NCBI GenBank assembly: GCA_017540945.1
Contig: JAFYAB010000014.1
Location: 1-46,425 of the forward strand
Length of the DNA: 46,425 nt
Direction: 5' to 3'
Source of the DNA: Oscillospiraceae bacterium
GTDB taxonomy: Bacteria; Bacillota_A; Clostridia; Oscillospirales; Oscillospiraceae
Shown: positions 11,801-30,831 of the stretch, one piece after another
Layout: each line of letters begins with the position of its first letter
How positions within the stretch are numbered: position 1 is the stretch's first letter
Program-made: the position numbers and the translations under genes
The notes under the pieces: generated by a model
The model's database searches: none
What the model saw: the letters and a program-made list of their open reading frames with translations, nothing else
What the model was told of the DNA's origin: nothing

Positions 11801-14800
11801 AGCTTCACACCCAATGGCTCCGCCTGGGCGAGGGCCTGCCCGAAAAGGTCCAGGCCTGGTGCCGGGCCAATCAGGTGACGGAGAACGCCTTCTTCACCTG
11901 CGCCTTCGCCTATACCCTGGCCCGGATCGCCGGACAGGAGGAGGCCCTCTTCTGCAACATCTACAACGGCCGCAACGACCCCAGGAGCTTCCGCATCCTG
12001 GGCATGCTGGTCAAGACCTATCCCTTCTATCAGAGCTTTGCGGGCGGGGAGCCCATCGCCGAGACCGTGCGGAGCACCGCCGCCCGGATCCGGGAGCTGA
12101 CAGCCAACGACCTCTACTCCTTCGCCGAGCTCAGCGCCGCCTACGGCATCAAGCCCGACATCCTCTTTGCCTACCAGGGCAGCGCCTTCCTGGAATTCTC
12201 CGTGGCGGGCCAGACCGTCAAGGCCGAGGCCCTGGGCCTCAAGGACGTGCAGGCCGCCCTCTCCGTGGACGTGTTCCTGGAGGACGGGGGCTACGCCATC
12301 AGCGCGGACTACGCCCCGGAGCGTTACAGCGGCCGGATGATCCGCTCCCTGCTGGGACTCTTCGGCAAGGTGGCGACGGATATGCTCCGGGCTCCCAGCC
12401 TGGCGGCCATCGACCTGATGACCCCCGAGGCCGCGGCCCTGCTGGAGCAGGTCAACGACACCGACTGGCCCGTGGAATACCGCCCCGCCCACTGCCTGCT
12501 GGAGCGCAGCGCCGCCGCCTGCCCGGAGAAGCTGGCCGTGGTGACCCCCACGGAGAAGCTGACGTACCGGGAGCTGAACGCCCTGGCCAACCGGCTGGCC
12601 CACGGCCTGATCGCCCTGGGCGTGGGCCCCGGGCGCATCGCCGCCCTGATGCTGGAGCGCAGCGCCAGGGTCTACGTGACCCGCCAGGGCATCCTGAAAT
12701 CCGGCGGCGCCTTCCTCTCCATCGACCCCGCCTATCCCGACGACCGGGTCCGGGTCATGTGCGAGGATTCCGGCGCGGCGGTGCTGATCGTGACCCGGGA
12801 CATTCTGGAGGCCCGGAAGGCTTTCCTGGACAGCCTCCCCTGCCGGGTGCTGACCGTGGAGGAGCTGCTCCTCCACGAAAATGACACCAACCCGGACATC
12901 TGGGTGGAGCCCGACGAGCTCTGCTACAGCATCTTCACCTCCGGCTCCACCGGCAAGCCCAAGGGCGTGCTGCTGACCCAGAAAAATCTCATCAACTTTG
13001 TGGACGCGAACCCCAAGAACCCGGAGATCCTGGGCTATACGAACTACGCCTCCGTCTCCCTGGCCCTGGCGGCCATCACCTTCGACGTGTCCATCATGGA
13101 GGAATTCATCCCCCTGGCCCACGGCATGACCATCGCCATGACCACCGAGGAGGAGATCCACAATCCCGCCGCCCTGGCCCGCTTTATGACGGAGAACGGG
13201 GTGGACATGATGAGCTGCACCCCCTCCTTCCTCTCCAACTGCATCGGCCTGTCCGTGATGAAGCCCGCCCTGGTCCACGTGAAATCCTATGACTTCGGCG
13301 CCGAGGCCTTCCCCGCCGCCCTCTACGGCAAGATCAAAGCCCTCAACCCCGAGGCCCACATCATGAACGGCTACGGCCCCACCGAGGCCACGGTGAGCTG
13401 CACCGTGGACGTGGTGACGGACCCCGGCTATATCACCATCGGCCGGCCCGCCTCCAACGTCCGGGCCTATGTGCTGGACGCCCAGGACCGCCCCCTGCCG
13501 CCGCTGATCCCCGGCGAACTGGTGATCGCGGGCGACGGCGTGGGCCGGGGCTACGTGCTGCGGCCGGAGCTCAACGCGGAGAAGTTCTTCACCGTGGAGG
13601 GCCGCCGGGCCTATCGCAGCGGCGACCTGGCCGCCTGGACCCCCGACGGCCGCATCCGCTTCCGGGGCCGCACCGACAACCAGGTGAAGCTCCGGGGCCT
13701 GCGGGTGGAGCTGGGCGAGATCGAGAGCGCCATCAACGCCTGCCCCGACGTGCTGACCTCCATCGTCATTATGACCGGCGAGGAGAACAACCGCTTCCTG
13801 GCGGGCTACTACACCGCCAGCCGGGAGATCGACCCCGCCGAGGTGAAGGCGGAGATCTCCAGGAGTCTGACCGGCTACATGGTCCCCGGCGTGCTGATGC
13901 AGCTGCCGGAGATGCCCCTGACCCAGAACGGCAAGATCGACAAGAAAAAGCTGCCCCAGGTGGAATACCAGCCCGACCAGGGCGAATATATCGCCCCGGC
14001 CAACGAGACGGAGGCGGATTTCTGCGGCTGGTTCGCGGAGCTGCTGAATCTGGATAAGGTCAGCGCCGACGGCAACTTCTTCGAGCTGGGCGGCACCTCC
14101 CTCTCCGCCGCCATCATCGCCATGAACGCCGCAGACAAGGGCTATCCCATCGTCTACGCCGACGTCTTCAAGGCCCAGACCCCCAGAGCCCTGGCGGCCC
14201 TGGCCAAGGGCGAGGCTCCCGAGGCCGTCGACCCGGAGCTGGAGGCCCTCCGCAGCTACGACTACGGCACCCTGGATCTGAGCCACAACGACGAGGCCTT
14301 CCTGCGGGAGATCCGCCGGGGAGAGATCGGCAGCATCCTGCTGGCCGGCGCCTCCGGCTTCCTGGGCATCCATGTGCTGCGGGAATACCTGCATGATTAC
14401 AGCGGCACCGCCTTCTGCCTGCTGCGGGGCCGGCAGCCCCTGGCCCGGCTGAAGGAGCTGTACTACTACTATTTTGAGGAGGCCCTGGACCGGTATCTGG
14501 CCGAGGGACGGGTGCAGATCGTCAACGCCGACGTCACCGACGCCGCCTCCCTGACCGCCGCGGAGCAGATCCCCTTCGACACCTGCATCAACTGCGCCGC
14601 CCTGGTGAAGCACTTCGTCAAGGACGACAGCCTGGAGCGGGTCAACGTCACCGGCGTGAAGAACCTGATCGCCCTCTGCCGGAAGACCGGCCGGCGGCTG
14701 GTACAGACCTCCACCGTCAGCGTGGCGGGCGAGGGTCTGGACGGCCAGCCCCCCAGAGACTGGACCATCAGCGAGCGGGAGCTCTACCACGGCCAGCTGC

Positions 14801-15411
14801 TGGACAACGCCTACGTGCTCTCCAAGTTCAAGGCCGAGCGGGCCATGCTGGAGGCCGTGGCGCAGGGTCTGGACGGCAAGATCGCCCGGCTGGGCAATCT
14901 GATGGGCCGCCACTCCGACGGCGAATTCCAGGTGAACTTCCGCAGCAACGCCTTCATCCGCTCCCTGGCCAGCTACAAGGCCATCGGCGCCGTCCCCTAC
15001 TCCCAGCTCAACGCCCTGACGGACTTCTCCGAGATCGACATGACCGCCAAGGCCATCCTGCTGCTGGCGGGAACGGACAAGCGCTTCACGGTCTTCCACC
15101 CCATCAACAACCACACCGTCACCTTCGCGGACATCCTCTACGCCATGCGGGCCTACGGCTTTGACCTGGAGGCCGTGGAGGACGAGGAATTCGCCCGGCG
15201 CATGGCGGAAGCCGGCAGCGCCGGCGGCGCCCTGATCGCCTACGAGAGCAAGGAGGGCGCGGAGCGGCGCTACGAGCTGGGCGCGGACTGCGCCTTCACC
15301 ACCAACGCCCTCTACCGGCTGGGCTTCAAGTGGCCCGTCACCGGCGAGACCTACATCGTCCAGATGCTCAAGGCCCTGGACGAGCTGGAAATGTTCGAAG
15401 AAGATCTTTGA
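8809..15411 (+). CDS. Dimodular non-ribosomal peptide synthetase with terminal reductase
   Basis: The 2200-residue enzyme has the order (partial C)-A-PCP-C-A-PCP-R. Residues 1-215 resemble only the C-terminal half of a condensation domain (ELLTAAFAYILGKF aligns with the same part of the real C domain) and lack HHxxxDG. A1 has TSGTTGTPKG at 359-368, and PCP1 has its phosphopantetheine Ser at about 742. The true C domain carries HHILFDG at 920-926. A2 has TSGSTGKPKG at 1377-1386, and PCP2 (LGGTSLSA) has Ser about 1764. The reductase has GASGFLG at 1847-1853 and Tyr2002/Lys2006. By hand alignment to GrsA the specificity residues read DAMFLVVILK (A1) and DVMSYFGVSK (A2). The product should be released as a dipeptide aldehyde, which can cyclise to a dihydropyrazinone or pyrazinone, as shown for related gut Clostridia clusters (Guo and colleagues, 2017). 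AAAGGAGG precedes the start. No phosphopantetheinyl transferase is in the window. Confidence 0.93.
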   Translation: MTEQQLAWWRSQYSGLETDSCPTIDLPDNELGGALARVSLPWRGDAELLTAAFAYILGKFTCQNESLFWIREAEGFSHPFYLSFDETAPTADYLSDSAARRRACLEHPEAEETALAEALGLSRDILLCLSGPAPTEAGWRLCLRPEDDCLALYYREGWYLAENMERLLKALLRVAEQLSACPRLCELVLAGPEDLAQQAAFPHWDLPASAPSVPALLARSFAQNPERTAVVYESERWTYKTLDALTDRIAAAMADRGIGKGKVVSTLLPRCKWMPAVAIAVLKTGAAYQPLDPSYPPERLNFMVQDSSAALLVADRELRTLLTDYDGPVLYTDELSELPAAGPLDREIGPQDPFILLYTSGTTGTPKGVILTHGNLVSFIDWYIPRFELNTESRSAAYASFGFDANMMDTYPILCAGGQLHILSDEVRFDLRAIDRYFNENQITHSFMTTQVGRQYALMTSCPSLRFLSVGGEALVPLEPPKGISFFNVYGPTECTILTTIYQVRSGSKRLPIGVPLNNLRLYVADRFHRLLPVGALGELLIAGAQVGAGYLNRPEKSAEVFIRNPFDDDPRFQRMYCSGDVVRWGADGNVEFVGRRDGQVKIRGFRIEMTEVERVIRDYPGVTDATVVAKDAPAGGKMIVGYLVADHPVDMAELERFILERKPPYMVPAVTMQIDKIPLNVNSKVDKRALPEPVFAAPAAEDAGPRARTALEETLYQIVGPIVGVEDFPVEAALDTLGLTSISALMLAVELEDRFGHSPDVSALPHSSLLSIENELVAHFMQAKPAESAPAQAEGPYPLTKTQLGIYAACMLDPENDSYQLPFLFRLDRHTDVDRLCRALEQTVAAHPALHCRIVPDRSCTAVMVPVENDFTIQPREGSEAFLEARLAEGDRFDLEHDAPYRIEVWRTEAGCYLYLNFHHILFDGSSLVVFMEDLARAFAGEELTPESYSQFSLALDERAARQSPAYEEAKAVYDRIFNGVDVNSLPEADGGDGQTELHTQWLRLGEGLPEKVQAWCRANQVTENAFFTCAFAYTLARIAGQEEALFCNIYNGRNDPRSFRILGMLVKTYPFYQSFAGGEPIAETVRSTAARIRELTANDLYSFAELSAAYGIKPDILFAYQGSAFLEFSVAGQTVKAEALGLKDVQAALSVDVFLEDGGYAISADYAPERYSGRMIRSLLGLFGKVATDMLRAPSLAAIDLMTPEAAALLEQVNDTDWPVEYRPAHCLLERSAAACPEKLAVVTPTEKLTYRELNALANRLAHGLIALGVGPGRIAALMLERSARVYVTRQGILKSGGAFLSIDPAYPDDRVRVMCEDSGAAVLIVTRDILEARKAFLDSLPCRVLTVEELLLHENDTNPDIWVEPDELCYSIFTSGSTGKPKGVLLTQKNLINFVDANPKNPEILGYTNYASVSLALAAITFDVSIMEEFIPLAHGMTIAMTTEEEIHNPAALARFMTENGVDMMSCTPSFLSNCIGLSVMKPALVHVKSYDFGAEAFPAALYGKIKALNPEAHIMNGYGPTEATVSCTVDVVTDPGYITIGRPASNVRAYVLDAQDRPLPPLIPGELVIAGDGVGRGYVLRPELNAEKFFTVEGRRAYRSGDLAAWTPDGRIRFRGRTDNQVKLRGLRVELGEIESAINACPDVLTSIVIMTGEENNRFLAGYYTASREIDPAEVKAEISRSLTGYMVPGVLMQLPEMPLTQNGKIDKKKLPQVEYQPDQGEYIAPANETEADFCGWFAELLNLDKVSADGNFFELGGTSLSAAIIAMNAADKGYPIVYADVFKAQTPRALAALAKGEAPEAVDPELEALRSYDYGTLDLSHNDEAFLREIRRGEIGSILLAGASGFLGIHVLREYLHDYSGTAFCLLRGRQPLARLKELYYYYFEEALDRYLAEGRVQIVNADVTDAASLTAAEQIPFDTCINCAALVKHFVKDDSLERVNVTGVKNLIALCRKTGRRLVQTSTVSVAGEGLDGQPPRDWTISERELYHGQLLDNAYVLSKFKAERAMLEAVAQGLDGKIARLGNLMGRHSDGEFQVNFRSNAFIRSLASYKAIGAVPYSQLNALTDFSEIDMTAKAILLLAGTDKRFTVFHPINNHTVTFADILYAMRAYGFDLEAVEDEEFARRMAEAGSAGGALIAYESKEGAERRYELGADCAFTTNALYRLGFKWPVTGETYIVQMLKALDELEMFEEDL

Positions 15412-17747: not shown

Positions 17748-18215
17748 ATGCAGCTTCGATTTGCTGTTCTGGAGGATCTGCCCGCGGTAAACGTCCTGCG
17801 CAGGCAGGTCAACGAGCTCCATGTGACGGGACGGCCCGAGACCTTCAAGGCGGGCTTTCCGCCCGAGCTGGAGCACCACGTCTACACGGTTTTCCACGAC
17901 CCGGACCAAAAGATTCTCGTGGCCGAGGAGGACGGGCAGCTCTGCGGCTTCGCGGTGCTCCACCAGATCCGCAGGCCGGAAACGCCCTTCATGTACGAAC
18001 GGCGCTTTCTGGACGTGGATGAGTTTGGGGTAGCCCCGGCCTTTCGCCGCCGGGGCGTCGGCAGGGCGCTGATCGACCGGGCTAAGGCGTGGGCAAAGGA
18101 GCAAGGCTTCGACCGGCTGGAGCTCAACATGTGGGAGTTCAACCGGGACGCCCTGGCGTTCTATGAGGCGGTCGGTTTTCAAACCTATCGCCGGTATCTG
18201 GAGATCCCGCTGTAA
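17748..18215 (+). CDS. GNAT family N-acetyltransferase
   Basis: A 155-residue GNAT protein with the acetyl-CoA loop motif APAFRRRGVGRALIDRAKAWA (about residues 94-114) and a C-terminal ELNMWEFNRDALAFYEAVGF typical of Rim-like acetyltransferases. The start at 17748 follows TCGGAGGAAC; a longer frame from 17649 overlaps the phosphatase gene and is rejected. The gene lies 59 bases after the phosphatase gene and before the terminator at 18227, so it may be the last gene of the NRPS operon. It could modify an amine substrate or the peptide product, or be unrelated; the sequence does not decide this. Confidence 0.88.
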   Translation: MQLRFAVLEDLPAVNVLRRQVNELHVTGRPETFKAGFPPELEHHVYTVFHDPDQKILVAEEDGQLCGFAVLHQIRRPETPFMYERRFLDVDEFGVAPAFRRRGVGRALIDRAKAWAKEQGFDRLELNMWEFNRDALAFYEAVGFQTYRRYLEIPL

Positions 18216-18226
18216 AGCATAAAAAT

Positions 18227-18270
18227 CTGCCCCTGAAACGGCAATTCCGTTTCAGGGGCAGATCGTTTTT
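18227..18270. terminator. Bidirectional intrinsic terminator
   Basis: A perfect 15-bp stem (CTGCCCCTGAAACGG at 18227-18241, complement at 18247-18261) has a 5-base loop. T residues lie downstream (18266-18270), and on the minus strand the stem is followed by ATTTTTATG. It separates the convergent GNAT and XRE genes and ends both transcripts. Confidence 0.88.
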
Positions 18271-18277
18271 GGGGGGC

Positions 18278-19312
18278 TTACGCCTTCTCCCGCAGGCGGG
18301 CCAGCTCGGCCTTGGCGGTCTGGAGCTCGAGCTCTTCGGTGAAGCCCCACTCCTTTTCCAGCAGATCCACGATCCGGCCGTAGGTCTCGGCGGCCTTCGC
18401 GTAATCTCCGCGGATCTCCCAGATGTCCGCGATGGCCATCAGCTCATCCTGGAAGCGGGGGCGCCGGGGCTCCCGCTCAAAGGAGCGCTCGTAGAGGGTG
18501 ATGGCCCTGTCGTAGTCGCACTTGGCGGCGTAGTACTGGGCGGCCTCGAAGAGCCAGACGAAATCGTCCGGGTACTGTCTGCCCAGCTCCTCCACGATCC
18601 GGTCCGCCGTGGGCTCGTCGAAGCGGGCCAGGGCGATATGGGCCCGGTAGATCCCCACGTGGACGGGATTGACCCCCGGCATCCGGGCGTAGCGCGCCAG
18701 CAGGGCCTCGGCCTCGTCGGCCCGGTGGTCCGCCAGCAGATTGTCGAAGAGATAGGCGTAGGGCAGCGCCTCGTCGGGATTTGCCTCCACCAGCTCCCGG
18801 TAGAAGTCCACAGCCTTGTGGTGATTGGCGAAATTCCAGTCCCAGCAGGCGTGGCCCTCGGCCATCTGGAGCAAATACTGGCAGTTCTTCTCCCCCGGGG
18901 CTCTGCGGATGGCCTCCTTGGCCCAGCGCCGGACCTTCCCGGCGTCGGAGTACATCCGGTGCCAGTAGAGATAGGCCAGGAGCTCCGTAGCCCGTTTTTG
19001 ATGGGTCTCGTCCTGCAGCTGATCCTTCAGGAAGTCTTCATACTCCCGGAACAGCTCCTGGGGCAGGGTTTTTTCGTTATCCAGGCTGTTTTCGATGCGG
19101 TTCAGCCGCTGCTCGGCGCTGAGATCAAAAAGCTCGTCGATGCTGACGCCAAAGATCTCCGCCAGCTTGGGCAGCAGGGTGATGTCGGGCAGGGCCGCGC
19201 CGGTCTCCCATTTGGACACCGCCTGGGGACCCAGGCCCAGCTGCTCCGCCAGATTTTCCTGGGTGAGCCCCGCCTTGAAGCGGAGCTGTCTGATCTTCTT
19301 TCCAAGTTCCAT
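18278..19312 (-). CDS. XRE family regulator with TPR-like C-terminal domain
   Basis: The 344-residue protein starts with a Cro/CI helix-turn-helix (residues 4-60, KIRQLRFKAGLTQENLAEQLGLGPQAVSKWE written in two helices). About 250 residues of helical repeats rich in Ala, Tyr and Trp follow (for example ALLARYARMPGVNPVHVGI and KAAETYGRIVDLLEKEW). This pattern fits tetratricopeptide repeats that bind a peptide or protein signal, as in RRNPP-like or other XRE-TPR regulators. It is transcribed toward the NRPS operon from its own promoter (19350-19378). It may regulate that operon or other genes; no operator is recognisable. Confidence 0.85.
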   Translation of the reverse strand: MELGKKIRQLRFKAGLTQENLAEQLGLGPQAVSKWETGAALPDITLLPKLAEIFGVSIDELFDLSAEQRLNRIENSLDNEKTLPQELFREYEDFLKDQLQDETHQKRATELLAYLYWHRMYSDAGKVRRWAKEAIRRAPGEKNCQYLLQMAEGHACWDWNFANHHKAVDFYRELVEANPDEALPYAYLFDNLLADHRADEAEALLARYARMPGVNPVHVGIYRAHIALARFDEPTADRIVEELGRQYPDDFVWLFEAAQYYAAKCDYDRAITLYERSFEREPRRPRFQDELMAIADIWEIRGDYAKAAETYGRIVDLLEKEWGFTEELELQTAKAELARLREKA

Positions 19313-19349
19313 GATTCTGTCCTCCTGTTTTGTTTTTGCTTACACCATG

Positions 19350-19378
19350 ATTATAGAACAGAGTTTTCGCAAAAACAA
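19350..19378 (-). promoter_or_regulatory. Sigma-A type promoter for the XRE/TPR regulator
   Basis: On the minus strand TTGTTT (19378-19373) and TATAAT (19355-19350) are spaced by 17 bases, about 38 bases before the start. AGGAGG sits directly before the ATG. Confidence 0.65.
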
Positions 19379-19598
19379 TGGCGCGGCCTTCGAGTTGGCT
19401 CGCCTGTTGGTGGAGTCGCCATCGTGTTTCGCGTCAAAGGGCGGCGCATCGATCCCATTGTATCCGGTGCCCTCCGGCTTGTCAAGCCCCGGGGCCCGCG
19501 AAAAACATGTGGCTTTTTTCGGCGACTTGTGCTATACTCAGCGCAGAAGAGCAGCGGCTCCGCGCCGCCACTGAAAAATGTTCAGAGGAATTGTCCGT

Positions 19599-21173
19599 AT
19601 GCAAACGCCCATCCGCGATTTCGTGCTCCGTTATGAATCCCTCCGTCCCGCCCGGTTCCATATGCCGGGGCACAAGGGCCGGGGGCCCTTGGGTTGCGAG
19701 GAATGGGACATCACGGAGATCCCGGGGGCCGATTCCCTCTGCGAGGCTGCCGGGATCATCGCCGGGAGCGAGGCCAACGCCTCGAAGCTCTTCGGCTGCC
19801 CCACGTTTTACTCCACGGAGGGATCGTCCCACTGCATCCGGGCGATGCTCCTGCTGGCGATGCAGTATACCTGTAGGGACAAGCATTGCTTGTCCGCCAG
19901 ATCCGATGAGGCAACATGGGACGGGGAAAAACGGATTGCCACGGCCAGTGTGCGCACTGGCCTCGCAATGACAGATACGAAACGATTCCGCGTCCTGGCG
20001 GCCCGGAACGTGCATCGGGCCTTTCTGACCGCGGCGGCGCTGCTGGATCTGGACGTCTGCTGGCTTCCAAATGTGGACGGCTCGTATCTCTCCGCGTCAG
20101 TGACGCCGGAGGCCCTGGACGCAGCCCTGGCGGAAACCGGAGCTTCGGCGGTCTATCTGACCTGCCCGGACTATTTGGGCTTTCTGCCCGATCTGCGGCC
20201 TCTGGCCGCCGTCTGCCACAGCCGGGGCGCCCTGCTGCTGGTGGACAACGCCCACGGGGCCTATCTGCGCTTCCTCTCCCCCTCCCGGCACCCCATGGAC
20301 CTGGGGGCCGACCTCTGCTGCGACTCCGCCCACAAGACCCTGCCCGTGCTGACGGGCGGGGCGTACCTGCACGTATCCGAAGCGCTCAGCACAGGGGAAG
20401 GCGCTCTGCATCCTCAGGCCGTGCGCGACGCTTTGGCGCTCTTCGGGTCTACGAGCCCGTCCTATCTGATTTTGCAGTCCCTCGATCTTGACAATCCCTA
20501 TTTGGAAACCCTGTCCGAAGAGCTGGCGGCCTTTTTGCCCCGGGTCGAGGCCCTGAAGACCCGGCTGCGGGCCGCGGGCTGGCGGCTGATGGGCGACGAG
20601 CCCCTGAAGCTGACGCTTTGCTGTCATTCTGAGCCTTGCCCTGAGCAAGGTCGAAGGGGAAGCGAAGAATCCGTACTCCCTGCGGCCCAAAAGGACGGGG
20701 GAACGGATCCTTCGACTCCGCTCCGCTCCGCTCAGGATGACAAACCCGGGAACGGTCTCGCGCTGGCCGCCGCCCTGGAACGGGAAGGGATCCTCTGCGA
20801 ATTCGCGGACCCGGATTTCGCGGTGTTTATGCTCTCGCCGCAGAATACGCAGGAGGAGCTGGATCGGCTGGAGCAAGCCCTCATCAGGGAAATCCGCCCT
20901 CGACAATCCGGCGCAAGCCGGCAAATAAAACCACTTGTCCCCTGTCACTTATCACCTGTCGCTTCTCCCGTCTGCTCCATCCGGGAGGCCATGCTGGCCC
21001 CGGCGGAGACGGTCCCGGCGGCAAAGAGCCTGGGGCGGGTGCTGGCAACGCCCGGGGTGAGCTGCCCCCCCGCGGTGCCCATCCTCATGCCGGGAGAGCG
21101 GATTTCAGCAGCCGACCTCGTCGCCTTTGAACGATATGGGATCGAAGCGGTATCTGTATTGTCCCTCAAATAA
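19599..21173 (+). CDS. Orn/Lys/Arg decarboxylase homologue with three in-frame repeat insertions
   Basis: A fold-type I PLP enzyme of the YaaO/SpeA family: RPARFHMPGHKGRG at the N-terminus, FGCPTFYSTEGSSHCIRAML, LVDNAHGAYL and the PLP lysine in CDSAHKTLPVLTGG. The C-terminal domain has PAVPILMPGERI. The start at 19599 follows AGAGGA; ATG 19578 has no ribosome binding site. A possible -10 (TATACT) lies at 19533-19538. The 524 residues include three segments foreign to the family, coded by dispersed repeats: about 41 residues from 19864, about 44 from 20623 and about 24 from 20900. Without them the protein would have about 415 residues. The frame is kept throughout. Whether the enzyme still works is open; the first insert lies in the large domain between conserved blocks. 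Confidence 0.8.
   Translation: MQTPIRDFVLRYESLRPARFHMPGHKGRGPLGCEEWDITEIPGADSLCEAAGIIAGSEANASKLFGCPTFYSTEGSSHCIRAMLLLAMQYTCRDKHCLSARSDEATWDGEKRIATASVRTGLAMTDTKRFRVLAARNVHRAFLTAAALLDLDVCWLPNVDGSYLSASVTPEALDAALAETGASAVYLTCPDYLGFLPDLRPLAAVCHSRGALLLVDNAHGAYLRFLSPSRHPMDLGADLCCDSAHKTLPVLTGGAYLHVSEALSTGEGALHPQAVRDALALFGSTSPSYLILQSLDLDNPYLETLSEELAAFLPRVEALKTRLRAAGWRLMGDEPLKLTLCCHSEPCPEQGRRGSEESVLPAAQKDGGTDPSTPLRSAQDDKPGNGLALAAALEREGILCEFADPDFAVFMLSPQNTQEELDRLEQALIREIRPRQSGASRQIKPLVPCHLSPVASPVCSIREAMLAPAETVPAAKSLGRVLATPGVSCPPAVPILMPGERISAADLVAFERYGIEAVSVLSLK
19864..19990 (+). repeat. In-frame repeat insertion 1 in the decarboxylase gene
   Basis: The segment contains the palindrome GGACAAGCATTGCTTGTCC behind a TAG, identical to the REP-like elements near 34324 and 35433. 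It then has GGATTGCCACGGCCAGTG with TGCGCACTGGCCTCGCAATG, a second palindromic repeat. It codes for YTCRDKHCLSARSDEATW and more, about 41 residues, between the conserved CIRAMLLLAMQ and RVLAARNVHRAF. Confidence 0.8.
20623..20755 (+). repeat. In-frame repeat insertion 2 in the decarboxylase gene
   Basis: The element is bounded by the inverted ends TGTCATTCTGAGC and GCTCAGGATGACA, with GAAGCGAAGAATCC and GGATCCTTCGACTC inside, which also pair. This type of repeat is common between genes in many gut bacteria. Here it codes for about 44 residues (CHSEPCPEQGRRGSEES and onward) in the middle of the C-terminal part. Confidence 0.8.
20900..20970 (+). repeat. In-frame repeat insertion 3 in the decarboxylase gene
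   Basis: CGACAATCCGGCGCAAGCCG followed by CTTGTCCCCTGTCACTTATC and ACCTGTCGCTTCTCCC has low-complexity direct repeats (CCTGTCxCTT) unlike the rest of the gene. It codes for about 24 residues rich in Pro, Ser and Val between IREIRP and CSIREAMLAPAE. The ends of the insert are less clear than for the other two. Confidence 0.55.
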
Positions 21174-21208
21174 AACAGGCTGCATGGTCTGTTTTTATTT
21201 GCGGGATA

Positions 21209-21244
21209 ATTACCTATTGACAAAGTAGGTAATTGTGTTATAAT
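21209..21244 (+). promoter_or_regulatory. Promoter with overlapping operator for the isc operon
   Basis: TTGACA (21217-21222) and TATAAT (21239-21244) are spaced by 16 bases. The inverted repeat ATTACCTA-N9-TAGGTAAT (21209-21216 and 21226-21233) covers the -35. The layout resembles Rrf2-family operators such as those of CymR and IscR, so the Rrf2 protein encoded at 22961 is the likely ligand. The promoter call is firm; the regulator is inferred from position. Confidence 0.75.
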
Positions 21245-21273
21245 ACCTCCAGAGAAACAAAAGGAGGCTCCTT

Positions 21274-22467
<1,194 letters not shown>

Positions 22468-22473
22468 TATATC

Positions 22474-22497
22474 GCGGCGCACACTGTGCGCCGCTAC
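22474..22497. repeat. Short GTAG-headed palindrome between iscS and iscU
   Basis: The core GGCGCACACTGTGCGCC is a near-perfect palindrome. Read on the minus strand it begins with GTAG followed by the palindrome, the layout of REP elements. The same core recurs at 27390-27411. It may form a hairpin between two co-transcribed genes. Confidence 0.75.
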
Positions 22498-22525
22498 CGA
22501 ACTATGAACCAAAGGAGATAATCAA

Positions 22526-22957
22526 ATGGCACTTTATTCCGAAAAGGTTATGGACCACTTCCGCAATCCCCGGAACGTGGGCGTCATCGAGGACGCCGAC
22601 GGCGTGGGCGAGGTGGGAAACGCCAAATGCGGCGACATCATGAAGATCTATCTGAAGATCAAGGACGACAGGATCGATGACGTGAAATTCGAGACCTTCG
22701 GCTGCGGCTCCGCCATCGCCTCCAGCTCCATGGCCACGGAGCTCATCAAGGGCCAGCCCGTGTCCGAGGCTCTGAAGCTGACCAACCAGGCGGTCACCGA
22801 GGCCCTGGACGGCCTGCCCGCCCACAAGCTCCACTGCTCCGTCCTGGCGGAGGAGGCCATCAAGGCGGCCATGAAGGACTACTACGACCGCCACGGCATC
22901 GCCTACGACGAGAGCCAGTTCCCCGCCGCCCACGACTGTGAGCACTGCGGCGTATAA
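22526..22957 (+). CDS. iscU: Fe-S cluster assembly scaffold protein (IscU/NifU-like)
   Basis: The 143-residue protein has the NifU N-terminal fold with the three cluster-binding cysteines in GNAKCGD, ETFGCGSAIASS and HKLHCSVLAEEA, and the N-terminal VMDHFRNPRNVG. It receives sulfur from IscS and builds [2Fe-2S] clusters. The C-terminus adds a short tail with two more cysteines (CEHCGV) that is common in Firmicute homologues. AAAGGAG is well placed before the start. The Rrf2 gene starts 3 bases after its stop. Confidence 0.95.
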   Translation: MALYSEKVMDHFRNPRNVGVIEDADGVGEVGNAKCGDIMKIYLKIKDDRIDDVKFETFGCGSAIASSSMATELIKGQPVSEALKLTNQAVTEALDGLPAHKLHCSVLAEEAIKAAMKDYYDRHGIAYDESQFPAAHDCEHCGV

Positions 22958-22960
22958 GTC

Positions 22961-23359
22961 ATGGCTGCGATGATTTCCAGCCGGGGCCGCTATGCCCTGC
23001 GCGTCATGACCGACCTGGCGGCCCAGGACCCGGAACGGCCGGTGGCTCTGAAGGAGATCGCCGCGCGGCAGGCGCTGTCCCAGAAGTATCTGGAGGCCAT
23101 CATGACCACCCTCTCCAAGGGCGGTCTGGTGGAGGGTCAGCACGGCAAGGGCGGCGGCTATCGCCTGAGCCGGAGGCCGGAGGAGTACTCCCTGGGAGAG
23201 ATCCTGCGGCTCACCGAGGGCAGTCTGGCCCCCGTGGCCTGTCTGGAGGACGGCGCCGAGCGCTGCGCCCACCCCTGCTCCTCCCTGCCCGTATGGGAGG
23301 AGCTGGAGCGGCTGGTGGCCGATTATCTGGACAGCGTCAGTCTGGCGGATCTTCTGTAA
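22961..23359 (+). CDS. Rrf2 family transcriptional regulator (IscR-like)
   Basis: The 132-residue protein has the winged helix of the Rrf2 family (SRGRYALRVMTDLA, then IAARQALSQKYLEAIMTTL, then GKGGGYRLSR). Three cysteines follow at 94, 102 and 106 (C-x7-C-x3-C), the likely [2Fe-2S] ligands as in IscR, though the spacing differs from the x5/x5 of E. coli. It is the last gene of the iscS-iscU operon and probably binds the inverted repeat at 21209-21233, giving feedback by cluster status. A CymR-type role in cysteine control is an alternative, but the cysteines favour the cluster sensor. Confidence 0.88.
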   Translation: MAAMISSRGRYALRVMTDLAAQDPERPVALKEIAARQALSQKYLEAIMTTLSKGGLVEGQHGKGGGYRLSRRPEEYSLGEILRLTEGSLAPVACLEDGAERCAHPCSSLPVWEELERLVADYLDSVSLADLL

Positions 23360-23384
23360 AATCACGGTCTTTGGTTCTAAGGTT

Positions 23385-23416
23385 CCCTCCCGCGTCATAT
23401 CTATGACACGGGAGGG
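23385..23416 (+). terminator. Hairpin after the isc operon that also covers the spoIIP ribosome binding site
   Basis: CCCTCCCGCGTCATA (23385-23399) pairs with TATGACACGGGAGGG (23402-23416), 15 bp with one mismatch. The 3' arm contains GGGAGGG, the only ribosome binding site for the ATG at 23423. ATTTTC follows, a weak T run. It may end the isc transcript, and it would hide the start site of spoIIP in any read-through RNA. Confidence 0.6.
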
Positions 23417-23422
23417 ATTTTC

Positions 23423-24520
23423 ATGTACCCGATACTGTACCGTAAGAAAACGCGGACGAGCTTCCTGGCCTGCCTGCTTCTGCTTGCCTTGACGATCCGC
23501 GTCCTTGGCGAGCCGGAGCTGCGCGGAATGGTCTGGGCGCGAACGAAGGACGTCCTGGGCAGCGAGGCGCTTTTCAGGACGGTGCTGTTCTTGGAAACCG
23601 GCGTCCTGCCCGAAAAGCTGTCCACCCCTGTTCAGCTTCCGCCCGCCGGAGACGAGCCCGCCCCGGAACGCGGGAATCTTCCCGCCGCTGCCGTAAGCCA
23701 GACCGAAGACACGCAGACTCCCGCAACGGCCGCGCCGACCCCCTTCACGACGGAGGCCGTCCCCGCGGCTGTCGCCCCACAGCCCGCGCCGTTTACGGCG
23801 GCGGAGGCGGAGGCCCTCTCCCTCCGGGGGAACTGCACATACCCGGTGGACAAGGCCGCCCTGCTGCTGCGGCCCCTGGGCTGGCCTTCCCTGCCAGGGC
23901 CCAAGGTGCTGATCCTCCACAGTCACTCCTGTGAGGCCTATACCCAGAGCGAGGGACACAGCTACCTTGCCAGCGACAATTACCGGACCCTGGACCTGTC
24001 CAACAACGTCACAGCAGTGGGGGACGCCCTGGCGGAAGCTCTGGCCGACTTGGGGGTGGAGCTCATCCATGACCGGAGCTACAACGACTATCCCAGCTAC
24101 AACGCCTCCTACGGGGTGGCCCGGGAGAAGATCCAGGCCTATCTGGAGCAATACCCCTCCATCGTACTGGTGCTGGACCTGCACCGGGACGCCCTGGAAA
24201 AGCCCGTCCGGGAGACAGTGGAGCGGGACGGTCAAACGCTGGCGCCTCTGATGCTGGCCGTGGGCAGCGACCAGGGCGGGCTCAACCATCCCCACTGGGA
24301 GGACAACCTCTCCTGCGGTCTCAAGCTCCAGGCTCTGGGCTGCCGGGACGAGCCCTGTCTGTTCAAGAAGCTCTCCTTCCGAAAGGAGCGCTTCAACGGG
24401 GACCTGTCCCCCGGCGCTCTCATCGTGGAGGTAGGCTCCACGGAGAACACCCTGGAGGAGGCCCAGGCCTCCATGCCCTATCTGGCGCGGTATATCGCGG
24501 AGCTGCTGCGCTGCCCATAA
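23423..24520 (+). CDS. spoIIP: Stage II sporulation protein P
   Basis: The 365-residue protein has an N-terminal membrane helix (about residues 10-26), a Pro/Ala-rich linker of about 100 residues, and the SpoIIP catalytic domain with VLILHSHSCEAYTQ (zinc His), YRTLDLSNNVTAVGDALAEAL, DLGVELIHDRSYNDYPSYNASYG and VLVLDLHRDAL. SpoIIP is a peptidoglycan amidase and endopeptidase that acts with SpoIID during engulfment in the mother cell. Its presence shows that the organism carries the sporulation programme. A SpoIIQ-like gene is also in this window at 29969. I see no clear sigma-E promoter in the short upstream gap. Confidence 0.92.
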   Translation: MYPILYRKKTRTSFLACLLLLALTIRVLGEPELRGMVWARTKDVLGSEALFRTVLFLETGVLPEKLSTPVQLPPAGDEPAPERGNLPAAAVSQTEDTQTPATAAPTPFTTEAVPAAVAPQPAPFTAAEAEALSLRGNCTYPVDKAALLLRPLGWPSLPGPKVLILHSHSCEAYTQSEGHSYLASDNYRTLDLSNNVTAVGDALAEALADLGVELIHDRSYNDYPSYNASYGVAREKIQAYLEQYPSIVLVLDLHRDALEKPVRETVERDGQTLAPLMLAVGSDQGGLNHPHWEDNLSCGLKLQALGCRDEPCLFKKLSFRKERFNGDLSPGALIVEVGSTENTLEEAQASMPYLARYIAELLRCP

Positions 24521-24735
24521 AAAGTAATAAGTAAGAAGTAATAAGTAATAGGTGTTCGTGTCGATGCCGTTTACTTATTACTTATTACGTATCTGTTCAG
24601 TAGCCCCCTCATCCGTAGGGGCGGATGCCCACATCCGCCCTTATTTCCGGGCAAACCCCGGCAGATAGGGCCGATGTAGTCATCGGCCCCTACGAGCTGC
24701 TGAATAATAACCTTATTACCTATTACTTATTCCTT
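24521..24735. repeat. Intergenic repeat block with AGTAATAAGTAAT arms
   Basis: Direct copies of AGTAATAAGTAAT-type sequence at 24524-24551 face inverted copies (ATTACTTATTAC) at 24571-24591 and 24711-24731. They flank the REP pair at 24615-24693. No coding sequence is visible in the gap 24521-24812. Confidence 0.7.
24615..24693. repeat. GTAG-headed inverted REP pair (REPIN-like), copy 1
   Basis: Two palindromes in opposite orientation, each starting with GTAG at the outer end: GTAGGGGCGGATGCCCACAT on the plus strand and GTAGGGGCCGATGACTACAT on the minus strand, with a spacer of about 25 bases. The same arrangement recurs at 26276, 41088 and 46181. Confidence 0.85.
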
Positions 24736-24757
24736 TCAAATATGCCTTTCTGTTTGC

Positions 24758-24786
24758 TTGCCAATCGAAGCGGGCTGTGATATAAT
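24758..24786 (+). promoter_or_regulatory. Sigma-A type promoter for the RNase HI fusion gene
   Basis: TTGCCA (24758-24763) and TATAAT (24781-24786) are spaced by 17 bases, 26 bases before the ATG at 24813. Confidence 0.75.
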
Positions 24787-24812
24787 ATGAAAAAACCTTT
24801 CAGGAGCGCATC

Positions 24813-26252
24813 ATGAAAACAGTAATCATATATACGGACGGAGCCTGCAGCGGGAATCCCGGGCCCGGGGGCTGGGGCGCGATCCTGGAGTACCGGGGCC
24901 GGGAAAAGGAGCTCTCCGGCGCCGAGGCCCGGACCACCAACAACCGCATGGAGCTCACCGCCGTGATCCGGGCTCTGGAGCAGCTTAAGGAGCCCTGCCG
25001 GGTGGAGCTGTACTCCGACTCCAAATACATCGTTGACGCCCTGAGCCTGGGCTGGGCCAAGGGCTGGCAGGCCAAGGGCTGGAAAAAGCCCGACAAGAAG
25101 CCCGCTCTGAACCCGGATCTCTGGCAGCGGCTCTTGGAGCTCTGCGACACGCACAGCGTCAGCTGCCACTGGGTCAAGGGCCACGCGGACAACCCCAAAA
25201 ACGAACGCTGCGACGAATTGGCCGTGGCGGCCCGGGAAGCCATCGTTTCAGAAGAAATACGCGGACGGCAGAGCGCCGTCCCTGCAGAAAAGGAGGCCAG
25301 CGCCATGTCTGAAAAAGCCATCGTCTACTTTACCCGCGAGCTCTCCCCCGAGGGCTTGAAGAAACTCTTTGCCCGCATTTCCGCCCCCCTAACCGGCAAG
25401 GTGGCCGTGAAGCTGCACACCGGCGAGAAAAACGGTCCCAACATTATTCCCTCCGCCTGGGTCAAGGAATTCCTGGGCGAATGCCTGCCCGAGGCCACCA
25501 TCGTGGAGACCAACACCTTCTATGAGGGTGACCGCTACACCACCGAGCAGCACCGGGAAACCCTCAAGGTCAACGGCTGGACCTTCTGCCCCGTGGACAT
25601 CATGGACGAGGAGGGCACCGTGGATCTCCCCGTCGAGGGCGGCAAGTGGTTTGACCACATGACCATGGGCAGCCACGTGACCCGCTACGACTCCCTGCTG
25701 GCCCTGACCCACTTCAAGGGCCACACCATGGGCGGCTTCGGCGGCTCCAACAAAAACCTGGGCATCGGCATGGCCGACGGCCGCATCGGCAAGAAGATGA
25801 TCCACCAGCGGGAGGGCTCCGACGACATGTGGTCCATCGCCATGGACGAGCTGATGGAGCGCATCGCGGAATCCACCAAGGCCACCGTGGACCACTTCCG
25901 GGGCCATATCGCCTTCCTGAACGTGCTGCGGAACATGTCCGTCTCCTGCGACTGCGAGGGCGTCGGCGCCCAGCCCGTGGTGACCCCCAACATCGGCATG
26001 GTGGCCTCCCTGGACGTCCTCGCCGTGGATCAGGCCAGCGTGGATCTGGTCTACGCCCTGAATCCCGCCGACAACAAAGCCCTGACCGAGCGTATCGAGA
26101 CCCGCCACGGCCTGCGGCAGCTCAGCTATATGAAGGAGCTGGGCATGGGCAGCGACCAGTATGACCTCATCGATATCGACAACGGGGACAAGCTCATCTC
26201 CCCCGCCGAAGCCGTCAAAGACGTCGTGCCTTTCAGCCCCTTCGCGCTGTAA
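24813..26252 (+). CDS. rnhA: RNase HI fused in frame to a DUF362 protein
   Basis: Residues 1-148 are a full RNase HI ([60 protein letters not shown]), with the catalytic Asp, Glu, Asp, Asp set visible. It would cut RNA in RNA-DNA hybrids. Residues 165-479 form a DUF362-type protein with [40 protein letters not shown] and CDCEG, of unknown function and linked to Fe-S centres in annotation. The linker at 25230-25304 looks like a former intergenic gap: it contains AAAAGGAGG at a normal distance from an in-frame ATG at 25305. A 315-residue DUF362 protein may therefore also be made alone. There is no stop codon between the two parts. Confidence 0.85.
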
Positions 26253-26275
26253 ACGGAACAAACCCGTAGGGGCCG

Positions 26276-26344
26276 ATGCCCACATCGGCCCTTCCTGCCA
26301 ATGATTGCCCGCAAACGAGGGCGGATGTGGGCATCCGCCCCTAC
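26276..26344. repeat. GTAG-headed inverted REP pair (REPIN-like), copy 2
   Basis: GTAGGGGCCGATGCCCACAT on the plus strand and GTAGGGGCGGATGCCCACAT on the minus strand face outward, with a 17-26 base spacer. It lies between the RNase HI fusion and birA, ending 17 bases before the birA start. Confidence 0.85.
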
Positions 26345-26361
26345 GAAGAAGGGTGGAAAGC

Positions 26362-27333: not shown

Positions 27334-27387
27334 TCTGCATGCAGGGACAAGCCGCCCACCGCGATTTGAACCCCGAATCCCAAAAAT

Positions 27388-27411
27388 CATGGCGCACACT
27401 GTGCGCCGCTA
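27388..27411. repeat. Short GTAG-headed palindrome before pepT
   Basis: GGCGCACACTGTGCGCC followed by GCTAC is the second copy of the palindrome at 22474. On the minus strand it reads GTAG and then the palindrome. It lies 44 bases before the pepT start. Confidence 0.75.
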
Positions 27412-27454
27412 CAGATATGCAGATACAATACAGAAAAACAGCGGAGGTATACAC

Positions 27455-28654
27455 ATGAACGTCACCGAGAGATTCCTGAAGTACGTCGCCTTTGACACCC
27501 AATCCGACGAAAACAGCGAGAGCTGTCCCTCCACCGCCAAGCAGAAGGAGCTGGGCGCTTTCCTCGTGGAGGACATGAAGGCCATCGGCATCGCCGACGC
27601 CCGGATGGACGAATACGGCTATGTCTACGGCTCCGTCCCCGGCACCGTCGAGGCCCCGGTCATCGGTCTCATCGCCCACATGGACACCTCGCCGGACTGC
27701 TCCGGCAAGGACGTCAAGCCCCGGATCGTGGACTACAAGGGCGGCGACCTGGTGCTGAACGAAGCGGAGAAGATCGTCATGAAGGTCAAGGACTTCCCCA
27801 GCCTGAAATGGAACGAGGGCAAGCACCTGATCGTCACCGACGGCAGCACCCTGCTGGGCGCCGACGACAAGGCCGGCGTTGCGGAGATCCTCACCGCCGT
27901 GGAGGAGCTGCTGGCCGAGGGCGGCCCCCGGGTCCCCCTGCGGCTGGCCTTCACCCCCGACGAGGAGGTGGGCCGCGGCGCGGACCGCTTCGACGTGAAG
28001 GGCTTCGGGGCGGAGTTCGCCTACACCGCCGACGGCGGCACCCTGGGCGAGCTGGAATATGAGAACTTCAACGCCGCCGCGGCCACGGTGGTGTTCAAGG
28101 GCGTCTCCATCCACCCGGGCAGCGCCAAGGGCCGGATGATCAACGCCATGCAGGTGGCCGTGGACTTCCACAGCATGCTGCCCAGCCACGAGCGGCCCGA
28201 GTACACCGAGGGCTACGAGGGCTTCTCCATGCTGGCCCACATGCAGGGCAGTATCGAGGAGGCCAGGCTCCAGTATATCATCCGGGACCACGACCGCTTC
28301 AAGTTTGAGCAGAAGAAGTCCCGCTTCCAGATGATTGCCCGCTACCTCAATGAGCGCTGGGGCGAGGGCACCGTCACCGTCAGCCTGAAGGACAGCTACT
28401 ACAACATGAAGGAGAAGATCCTCCCGGTCATGCATGTGGTGGAGCGGGCCAAGGCCGCCATGCGCGCCGCCGGGATGGACCCGGTGGCCGTACCCATCCG
28501 GGGCGGCACCGACGGGGCCCGGCTCAGCTTCGAGGGCCTGCCCTGTCCCAACCTCTGCACCGGCGGTGAGAACTACCACGGGCGCTATGAGTACATCCCC
28601 GTGGAGGACATGGAGCGCTGCGTGCAGATGCTCAAGCACATCGCCCGGCCGTGA
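27455..28654 (+). CDS. pepT: Peptidase T (M20B aminotripeptidase)
   Basis: The 399-residue cytoplasmic zinc peptidase releases the N-terminal residue of tripeptides. Family segments are YVAFDTQSDENSESCPST, IGLIAHMDTSPDCSG with the first metal His, GADDKAGVAEILTA, FTPDEEVGRGADRFD with the catalytic Glu, TADGGTLGELEYENFNAA and RGGTDGARLSFEGLPCPNLCTGG with the C-terminal His region NYHGRYEY. The start at 27455 follows GCGGAGG; the longer frame into birA is a shadow. The next gene starts in a GTGA overlap at 28651. Confidence 0.95.
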   Translation: MNVTERFLKYVAFDTQSDENSESCPSTAKQKELGAFLVEDMKAIGIADARMDEYGYVYGSVPGTVEAPVIGLIAHMDTSPDCSGKDVKPRIVDYKGGDLVLNEAEKIVMKVKDFPSLKWNEGKHLIVTDGSTLLGADDKAGVAEILTAVEELLAEGGPRVPLRLAFTPDEEVGRGADRFDVKGFGAEFAYTADGGTLGELEYENFNAAAATVVFKGVSIHPGSAKGRMINAMQVAVDFHSMLPSHERPEYTEGYEGFSMLAHMQGSIEEARLQYIIRDHDRFKFEQKKSRFQMIARYLNERWGEGTVTVSLKDSYYNMKEKILPVMHVVERAKAAMRAAGMDPVAVPIRGGTDGARLSFEGLPCPNLCTGGENYHGRYEYIPVEDMERCVQMLKHIARP

Positions 28655-29829
28655 AGCACCTGGCCCCCGCCTGCTTCCGGGCCTTTGCCTGCGCCGCGGG
28701 CAGCTGCCCCGACAGCTGCTGCCGCGCCGGCTGGGAGATCGTCGTAGACCCCGATACCTGCGAGCTTTACCGGACCCTTTGCGGACCCACGGCCGAGCGG
28801 GTCCGCAAAGGGGTCCTTCCCGGCGCGGAGACCATACTGAGGCAGAATGAAAACCGCGTCTGCGTCCTGCTGGACCCGGACGGGCTCTGCCATGTCCAGC
28901 GGAACTTCGGCCACGAAGCCCTGTGCCGGGTCTGCCGGGAGTATCCCCGCTTCCATCGGGAGTTCGGCAATCTGACGGAGCACGGGCTCAGTCTGAGCTG
29001 CCCCACGGCCTACGCCCTGGCGACCTCGGCCCCGCCCGTCTGGGAGGAATGGGAGGACGAGGCGCCCGTCGTCCCCAACGAGCTGGACCCGGAGGCCTAT
29101 CTGCGCCTGCGAAGGGGACGGACCCTGGCGCTGGAGCTCCTGACCCGGAAGGAGCTGAGCCTGGAACGGCGGCTGACGCTGGTATGGAAGCTGGCCGCCG
29201 CCATGCAGTCCGCCCCGGAGCGCCGGATCAGGCACGATTACGCCCTCCGGCTCAAACGCTGGGAAAGCCTGCCGTCGCATCGTAGGGACAAGCATTGCTT
29301 GTCCGGTTTGCGCAGCAAACAATCGCACGGAGGGCGATCCCGGGATCCCGCGGCAAGAGGACTCATCAATCAACGAACTTGCAGCGCCGTCAGAGTTTGC
29401 CTGGCGGCAAATGCGTTCGTTCCGAACGCAGCCGCCCTCGCCCGCCGCTTCCTCTCCCTGGAGATCCTCTCCCCCGCCTGGAAGGACGCTCTGGAGCGCT
29501 TCGCGGCGCTGGCAGACGGGGAGCGGGCGATCCATGATCGCCCCTCCAGGGCGGAAGGTCGGACGACCGAGCGCCCCCCCTGCGGGGAACTGCTGTCGCC
29601 GTCCGACCCGGAGCCCTACGCCCGCTGGCTCTGGTATGCGCTCTACAAGTACTGGCTGGACGCCCTGGACGACGGGAATCTGCTGGGGCGGGTGGCGCGC
29701 GCTCTGGACATGCTCCTGCTGGGCCTGGCGATGGACCGGGCTTTCCCGGCCGAAGGCCCCTTCCTGCGGCGGATCAGCCGGGAGATCGAGCACTGCGAGG
29801 AAAACCTGGCCGCCCTGTTGCAATATTAG
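28651..29829 (+). CDS. FliB-like (flagellin lysine N-methylase family) protein with an in-frame insertion
   Basis: The N-terminus carries the Cys-rich metal-binding pattern of the family: CFRAFACAAGSCPDSCC, then CHVQRNFGHEALCRVCREYPR and LSLSCPTAYAL. The C-terminal part (RWLWYALYKYWLDALDDGNLLGRVARAL) also matches, with about 390 residues in all. The protein may methylate lysines of flagellin or another protein; no flagellar genes are in this window. It starts at GTG 28651 overlapping the pepT stop. About 50 residues coded by 29275-29435 derive from a dispersed palindromic repeat (RRDKHCLSGLRSKQ and onward) and separate two conserved helices. A palindrome near 29522 (GGGCGATCCATGATCGCCC) suggests a second small insertion. 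Confidence 0.75.
   Translation: MKHLAPACFRAFACAAGSCPDSCCRAGWEIVVDPDTCELYRTLCGPTAERVRKGVLPGAETILRQNENRVCVLLDPDGLCHVQRNFGHEALCRVCREYPRFHREFGNLTEHGLSLSCPTAYALATSAPPVWEEWEDEAPVVPNELDPEAYLRLRRGRTLALELLTRKELSLERRLTLVWKLAAAMQSAPERRIRHDYALRLKRWESLPSHRRDKHCLSGLRSKQSHGGRSRDPAARGLINQRTCSAVRVCLAANAFVPNAAALARRFLSLEILSPAWKDALERFAALADGERAIHDRPSRAEGRTTERPPCGELLSPSDPEPYARWLWYALYKYWLDALDDGNLLGRVARALDMLLLGLAMDRAFPAEGPFLRRISREIEHCEENLAALLQY
29275..29435 (+). repeat. In-frame REP-like insertion in the FliB-like gene
   Basis: The left part (29283-29340) has GTAG, GGACAAGCATTGCTTGTCC, GGTTTGCGCAGCAAAC and an ATCGC/GCGAT pair, as in the 136-base elements at 34324 and 35433. The right part has TTTGCCTGGCGGCAAATGCG and TTCGTTCCGAAC, matching their right side. 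The middle differs (GGGATCCCGC and a GACTCATCAATC stretch). The total length is a multiple of three and leaves the frame open. Confidence 0.8.
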
Positions 29830-29847
29830 ATATTGTACGGCATATTT

Positions 29848-29913
29848 CCCTGGGCTTTGCCCAGGGCGGCATCCGCAGAAAGTGGATGCCGGAAAAAAGT
29901 TTCTGACTTTTTT
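29848..29913 (+). terminator. Terminator region with three consecutive hairpins
   Basis: CCCTGGGC/GCCCAGGG (29848-29866), GGCATCC/GGATGCC (29868-29890) and an A-rich stem AAAAAAGT/ACTTTTTT (29893-29913) follow the FliB-like gene and end in six T. Confidence 0.75.
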
Positions 29914-29924
29914 ATCAAATATTC

Positions 29925-29963
29925 GTATAAAACAAAGGACCGGAGCGACGGCTTCGGTCCTTT
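29925..29963 (-). terminator. Intrinsic terminator of the SpoIIQ-like gene
   Basis: The stem AAAGGACCG (29934-29942) / CGGTCCTTT (29955-29963) is followed on the minus strand by GTTTTATAC. It lies 6 bases after the stop codon of the minus-strand gene. Confidence 0.75.
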
Positions 29964-29968
29964 CTGCG

Positions 29969-30700: not shown

Positions 30701-30720
30701 GGGAATTCACCTCCGCTGGG

Positions 30721-30748
30721 AGTATGCCCCGGGGAGGAAAAATTATAC
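30721..30748 (-). promoter_or_regulatory. Candidate sigma-F/sigma-G promoter before the SpoIIQ-like gene
   Basis: On the minus strand GTATA (30748-30744) and GGGCATACT (30729-30721) are 14 bases apart. This fits the B. subtilis forespore consensus GYATA with a -10 of GGNNANANT. The transcript would start just ahead of the ribosome binding site at 30714-30708. A TATAAT also overlaps the site, so a housekeeping promoter cannot be excluded. Confidence 0.55.
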
Positions 30749-30752
30749 AGCG

Positions 30753-30788: not shown

Positions 30789-30831
30789 TGTTGTCTTCCG
30801 TTTTACCGTTCTGCAGAACGGCAGCGCAGGA

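Follow-up and report, generated by a model that had tools for sequence, protein, structure and literature searches.

The short Orn/Lys/Arg decarboxylase gene of an Oscillospiraceae bacterium, which belongs to the gut Clostridia, and of many of its relatives, carries dispersed repeats of several unrelated families at a few fixed loops, and these repeats are apparently, to judge from the open reading frames, translated as extra loops of the protein. Based on our results, we consider it quite probable that they are selfish, REP-like repeats which the protein tolerates as disordered loops, while its reading frame and the core of the enzyme are under purifying selection. The DNA from which we started, hereafter the window, is a stretch of 46,425 nucleotides (contig JAFYAB010000014.1), and we have compared it with related genomes and with the nearest homologues of its decarboxylase.

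The window gene is a short-form Orn/Lys/Arg decarboxylase whose activity and substrate are predicted. Its assignment to this family in the original prediction was borne out by Pfam, which finds both the major and the C-terminal OKR_DC domains (PF01276, E 5.7e-20; PF03711, E 1.4e-05; both above cut-offs); NCBIfam gave matches only far below its cut-offs. The top match of the core, in sequence and in fold, is 2x3l (SAR0482 of Staphylococcus aureus), an entry of 446 residues, which is close to the insert-free length in this clade. The motif S243-A-H-K246-T is invariant in a 64-row alignment, S[AF]HKT being present in 119 of 120 homologues, and we take its lysine to be the catalytic, PLP-binding one. 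As had been predicted, the frame stays open through the inserted segments, from 19578 (the start in the list of open reading frames) or 19599 (the start common to the homologues, from which the product counts 524 amino acids) to 21173. Aligned with its best 120 homologues, the protein shows a core of roughly 440 residues, interrupted at four places of greatly varying length, which we call L1 to L4 (Table 1).

Table 1. Repeat-bearing genes of the window, their loops and repeats (loop lengths are set against those of insert-free relatives; for L2, L3 and L4 the nucleotide totals take the loop one codon longer than its coordinates)
Feature	Position	Strand	Remarks
Short Orn/Lys/Arg decarboxylase gene	19599..21173	+	Pfam PF01276, PF03711; nearest solved relative 2x3l; S[AF]HKT motif
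Loop L1, repeat-filled	19860..19988	+	43 residues against at most 11; 115/129 nt found at two or more other clade places
GTAG-tagged palindrome in L1	19872..19895	+	read as CRDKHCLS; further copies in the window
Second dispersed element in L1	19932..19974	+	read as RIATASVRTGLAMT; L1 query positions 39-118 match many places in the genus
Loop L2	20373..20426	+	18 residues against at most 14; 0/57 nt match repeats
Loop L3, repeat-filled	20619..20759	+	47 residues against at most 10; 135/144 nt match elsewhere
121-nt element TGTCATTCTGAG ... CTCAGGATGACA filling L3	20622..20742	+	matches in 7/8 genomes
Loop L4, partly repeat	20883..20972	+	30 residues against at most 22; 29/93 nt match elsewhere
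Low-copy repeat in L4	20932..20964	+	positions 37-69 of the L4-segment query
FliB-like gene	28651..29829	+	'flagellin lysine-N-methylase' in source names of homologues; second repeat-bearing gene of the window
GTAG-tagged palindrome with flank in the FliB-like gene	29282..29340	+	repeat family D4

In the window gene, 279 of the 423 loop bases, as against 3 of the 1152 core bases, have matches at two or more places elsewhere in the sampled DNA of the clade. The L1 segment is made of two elements, a GTAG palindrome and the element at 19932-19974, and has matches in 22 of the 23 genomes of the genus; the family of its palindrome has five plus-strand copies in the window by repeat search, and its stem occurs in 11 window hairpins when a hairpin scan takes both strands together. 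The 121-nt element of L3 finds 21 matches in genome G003 and at least 40 in genome G002 (40 of 71 candidates scored). Chance is no explanation for these two segments. The L4 segment has matches in 6 of the 23 genomes, in few copies, of which the strongest is the orthologous gene of G001; within it, 20932-20964 matches few places and 20900-20922 a single one. Three segments of dispersed repeat, of 41, 44 and 24 codons, had been predicted here. The first two, in L1 and L3, stood, the third, in L4, is only partly repeat and weaker, and the sizes had to be revised: compared with 25 insert-free relatives (P0096-P0120; longest loops 11, 14, 10 and 22 residues in L1 to L4), the net gains are about 32 (L1), 37 (L3) and 8 (L4) codons, because the reference loops already reach 11, 10 and 22 residues. 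We looked for the same residues in repeat-free homologues, and the insert-free relatives do not have them.

The expectation that the first two segments lie in loops agrees with an AlphaFold model of the decarboxylase, in which they are mostly coil, with pLDDT blocks down to 37-45. The model has pLDDT of at least 90 in 259 of 524 residues and places L1 at a helix-strand junction, L3 at a strand-helix junction (towards its end, L3 forms a short helix) and L4 between two helices; the inserts are mostly coil of low confidence, the lowest ten-residue blocks being 45 in L1, 37 in L3 and 54 in L4. Blocks at residues 21-50, in the conserved N-terminus, and 281-300 also average 42-60, so that low confidence alone is no marker of an insert.

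Enlargement of these loops is widespread among the homologues. The protein set comprised the window protein and the best-scoring 120 homologues from a search of 5.8 billion sequences, in which the 7999 candidates sharing most words were scored; because only the best 120 of these were used, the 121 sequences are the nearest ones only. Counting a loop as enlarged when it exceeds the maximum of the insert-free reference by at least 8 residues, 74 of the 121 sequences have at least one enlarged loop, 240 loops in all and always at the same four places, and the other 47 have none. A named repeat family is matched by 180 of the 240. L2 is enlarged in 64 sequences, and all four loops together in 38, so the description of the window gene as having three hits was right as to the presence of repeats and understated their extent.

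At the DNA level, we matched 21 decarboxylase ORFs, one from the window and the others from 20 related genomes, three being truncated at contig ends, against 786 kb from the same clade with the decarboxylase genes masked, core and loop being handled alike. In these 21 clade genes, 3009 of 6183 loop bases (49%) and 315 of 24841 core bases (1.3%) have matches at two or more other places. The loop share should not be read as a value for whole genomes, because the clade sample includes loci fetched for holding repeats, and loops with missed anchors (all in G016 and G018; some in G005, G006, G007, G010-G013, G017, G019 and G020) count as core. The enlarged loops of G006, G013 and G021 have no repeat match at two or more places in this 786-kb sample; in the G002 gene all four loops match elsewhere in its own genome (78 matches, the gene itself included). 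Within the genus of G003, the gene is found in 20 of 23 genomes, and in the other three there is no more than a paralogue, weak or about 30% identical. Seventeen of these ORFs are complete and three are cut by contig ends; enlarged loops occur in 13 of the 17, at lengths of 479-643 residues, and the loops are apparently of normal size in G007 (445 residues), G016 (452), G019 (446) and G018 (484, where this rests on the separately readable L1 and L3). The repeats are present in these genomes too: a search with the G002 gene gave 30 matches in G007, 44 in G016 and 10 in G019 (those to decarboxylase segments are counted), and one with the L1 segment gave 43 in G018, yet in all four genomes the loops that could be read are of normal size. 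For the loops to be filled, it is therefore not enough that a genome holds copies of the repeats.

The repeats belong to several families, namely GTAG-tagged REP-like palindromes, the 121-nt TGTCATTCTGAG element, an element with the ends GATTGCC..GCAATGA, the AAGCCTTCCCC element and micro-tandem arrays. The TGTCATTCTGAG and AAGCCTTCCCC elements, the micro-tandem arrays and the element at 19932-19974 are not GTAG elements. Those that are have the features by which the REP superfamily is recognised, a short palindrome with GTAG at one end and many copies. The window holds 24 GTAG hairpins, against 0-6 in 10 mononucleotide shuffles, and a few of the 24 look like chance; their density per kb is 0.23 in the G003 sample, 0.24 in the G002 sample and 0.06 in distant loci. 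The same GTAG palindrome is also the centre of a mostly intergenic array with a 52-nt step at 35493-35804 of the window, in which five 104-nt copies are in register. Two 89-nt inverted copies (24606-24694 and 26265-26353), with two opposite-strand GTAG hairpins each, flank an ORF at 24813-26252 whose N-terminus we take to resemble RNase HI, the remainder presumably being another domain.

In the loops, the palindrome GTAG-a occurs in four of its six frames, both strands included: CRDKHCLS is found 10 times, VGTSIACP 19 times, RTSNACPY (opposite strand) 15 times, and a further frame once, each loop being counted once per family in its best frame, with related GTAG families overlapping. It is absent in the loops from the frame that starts at its TAG and from one open frame. 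The other families show similar mixtures of frames and strands, and a family match is found in 196 of 472 loops as against 39 of 472 shuffled loops. The stop-bearing frames, scored with shorter pieces, were 16, of which 6 were too short to score, 9 gave no match and one (GTAG-f) gave 3 matches, possibly to sister families; several open repeat frames are likewise without loop matches. Of the frames through 34 intergenic repeat blocks (60-150 nt long), 45% contain no stop, from which about 15% of insertions would be expected to stay open and in frame in the absence of selection.

As to how the repeats move, a RAYT transposase as general mobiliser is not supported by presence and absence across the 23 genomes: Y1_Tnp (RAYT-like) is found in 12 of them, in 11 above the cut-off, and is absent from several repeat-rich MAGs, and a GTAG hairpin stands beside the RAYT-like gene in one of the five loci examined. 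No target-site duplication, such as a MITE would leave, is evident by eye at the loop borders, in a sample without a clean empty/filled pair at the DNA level. An assembly artefact is unlikely; the inserts recur across projects and sources, and P0001 repeats those of the window.

The loops turn over fast relative to the core. On a core tree of 96 proteins, with loops sorted into coarse classes, the loop content has changed at least 28 times in L1, 33 in L2, 25 in L3 and 26 in L4, a count that leaves out unassigned loops (22, 20, 7 and 22 of 96, respectively). P0007 and P0026 have cores that are 97.5% identical and a different L3, and P0026 and P0034, with cores 96.1% identical, have a different L1. 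Among pairs of loops of at least 22 residues, which are not independent of each other, the dissimilar ones make up 13% of 70 at 95-100% core identity and 94% of 2782 at 75-80%. Furthermore, P0026 and P0027 have an identical L1 with flanks 95% and 97% identical despite whole cores of 81% identity, which suggests that loops are exchanged between species by homologous recombination through the conserved flanks.

The decarboxylase is accompanied by other genes with such inserts. Our survey took in 415 called genes from the window and from the samples of G002 and G003; it could judge the 152 for which another genome or locus offered a homologue. Insertions of at least 10 residues occur in 10 of the 152, and in 7 of these 10 an insert matches at least five places, its own place and overlapping loci included: the decarboxylase in three genomes, a FliB-like gene in three, and a tRNA nucleotidyltransferase in G003. 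In three genomes the FliB-like gene (window 28651-29829, L002 19893-21257, L003 19133-20230) is separated by some 9 kb from the decarboxylase, and the two FliB-like proteins searched have no match in Pfam. Inserts of at least 12 residues are found in 71 of 99 FliB-like sequences, mostly in three regions, and many of them, not all, read as the same repeats. In the alpha subunit of the replicase, DnaE (112 proteins of more than 1100 residues among the best 120), 28 proteins have inserts of at least 10 residues, 22 of them at one site (homologues P0237-P0270) and 6 only at other places, where they are not repeat-like by eye; most of the single-site inserts look by eye like GTAG-type peptides, that of P0252 is a tandem array, and the copy of G003 is the only one seen as a repeat at the DNA level. 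In G003, repeat blocks also appear within the called frame of a uracil-DNA glycosylase gene (four blocks; L124 6950-8089) and inside a DUF2344 gene. Elsewhere in the window, 8809-15411 is an ORF of 2200 residues, which we take to resemble a nonribosomal peptide synthetase.

The small number of sites per gene, a single one in DnaE (22 of 112) and about three regions in the FliB-like protein, and the occupation of the same sites by unrelated families would also be expected if the loops were preferred by the mobilising machinery, the pattern then reflecting targeting more than selection. We regard this as unlikely, since one target rule would have to serve unrelated families. Moreover, repeat blocks are commoner between genes than inside them in the window (7 versus 2) and in the G003 sample (64 versus 24), with the opposite in the G002 sample (18 versus 24), the inside-gene counts including ordinary paralogue matches and probably miscalled genes.

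The peptides themselves, or the diversity of the loops, could instead be beneficial, for regulation, partner binding or folding. Such a benefit would be in keeping with how commonly the inserts are carried, with the one loop seemingly shared together with its flanks, and with the non-core codons of the pair G005-G013, in which pN is 0.157 and pS 0.341 (90 codons, native loop residues included). We find it quite improbable, however, as the frame and the strand in which one and the same family is read vary, so that the peptide sequence hardly matters, as the codon use of the loops is poorly adapted (0.34-0.60, versus 0.59-0.80 in the cores, the loops being worse in all three genomes), and as some members of the genus manage without inserts.

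The core of the decarboxylase is under purifying selection. Of 171 pairs, the 14 closest have a core dN/dS of 0.14-0.32 (dN 0.068 and dS 0.478 for G005-G013; 0.132 and 0.531 for the window and G001), and the insert-free pair G016-G019, with dN 0.128 and dS 0.689, is similar to the insert-bearing pairs. None of the 17 complete ORFs of the genus has a premature stop, the TGA in three rows being by its coordinates the gene's own. That the gene is under weak selection, which had been offered as one way to account for so many repeats, does not agree with a core dN/dS like that of the insert-free pair, and DnaE carries such peptides as well; of all the results, the DnaE inserts are the clearest argument against it. 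In codon adaptation the cores of the window (rank 8 of 28) and of G003 (63 of 193) fall below the median, as a decaying gene filling with repeats would, but the core of G002 ranks 94 of 116, and we rejected decay, a very remote prospect, on the core dN/dS and the intact ORFs. Low expression, as read from codon adaptation, was set aside too, the ranks being inconsistent between the three genomes. Finally, removal of the segments from the RNA, or their skipping by the ribosome, to leave a protein without them is barely credible: the palindromes could fold in RNA, but such a process would not need the frame and its openness, which are kept in every complete gene seen, and a known RNA element was not found, with no Rfam match at gathering score in 18000-31000 of the window.

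In the reading that we prefer, with selfish repeats tolerated as disordered loops, short dispersed repeats of several families would enter the genes of these Oscillospiraceae again and again. Frame-breaking insertions would be purged, and those in frame would survive only where an added disordered loop is tolerated, presumably at the four decarboxylase loops, at about three regions of the FliB-like protein and at one place in DnaE. Later repeats may land beside the first, expand in tandem or be replaced, the replacement probably occurring in part via between-species homologous recombination through conserved flanks. We infer tolerance of the loops rather than benefit from them, and likewise this order of the insertion events. 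There is a bolder reading, to which we give a small but real chance, that the loops are standing landing sites, in which unrelated repeats would be captured whatever the frame, provided that it is open, and then exchanged as cassettes between species by recombination via the conserved core, possibly through an insertion process that favours these sites. If this were true, a housekeeping enzyme and the DNA replicase would carry lineage-specific, fast-changing peptide cassettes.

Repeats inside protein genes have precedents, described here from the accessible parts of the articles cited. The comparison with Rickettsia drawn in the original prediction holds for the first two segments, which are dispersed repeats kept in frame. 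Rickettsia palindromic elements (Ogata et al., 2000) lie in frame within conserved protein genes, typically in non-structured segments (PMC2996958), insertion hot spots have been considered for them (PMC3767692), and a guanylate kinase bearing one has been assayed and found active, with a changed affinity for its substrate (PMC3767692, PMC2229807, PMC2996958). Our repeats are like them in being dispersed, palindromic and in frame inside conserved genes whose frame is intact, a likeness that concerns the way they act. The palindromes of the window bear GTAG. The differences are that the host is a genus of Clostridia, and that here several unrelated families, with more than one frame and either strand in use, share the same loops and replace one another between proteins of 96-97% core identity.

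GTAG and CGTC repeats are known to occur in genes, many of them for replication and repair, with different REPs at about the same recB site in two Xanthomonas species and a REP in DnaE of R. conorii (accessible part of PMC3733652). The GTAG-tagged REPs of that article resemble ours in the short palindrome, the GTAG at one end and the intragenic copies, whereas here the number of sites and the turnover per gene seem far higher and non-GTAG families join in; the string 'Clostridi' occurs 0 times in its main text. PARCEL elements are palindromic DNA that codes repeated peptides and spreads within and between genomes, and coding palindromes of Wolbachia and Methanocaldococcus are cited alongside them (PMC2996958, in whose main text 'Clostrid' occurs 0 times). 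In the accessible part of this source, PARCEL forms 25-residue amphipathic tandem domains in proteins of the membrane or of unknown function, unlike the loops of conserved enzymes reported here. The enterobacterial RU/ERIC are small mobile repeats that are fused in frame to genes (PMC2229807; see also PMC2759123), and the accessible part of PMC2229807 describes them as fusions or new peptides and not as a repeated refilling of fixed loops. The earlier remark that such cases are little known in Clostridia agrees with our finding no counterpart in the literature searched, outside which most subscription journals lie. As far as these searches go, the kind of phenomenon is already known, and what is new is the host group, together with the fact that unrelated families refill the same loops repeatedly, that frame and strand make no difference, and that the loops spread in a manner suggestive of recombination.

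In conclusion, the insertion of protein-coding repeats, so far a matter of scattered cases, can here be studied as a natural experiment that comprises hundreds of enlarged loops. As the same loops are refilled repeatedly across one genus, they offer a direct test of which loops accept random peptides, of how fast selfish DNA turns into protein, and of how such sequence spreads by recombination. For those who annotate these MAGs, much of the length variation seen here consists of repeats, and is neither error nor new domain.
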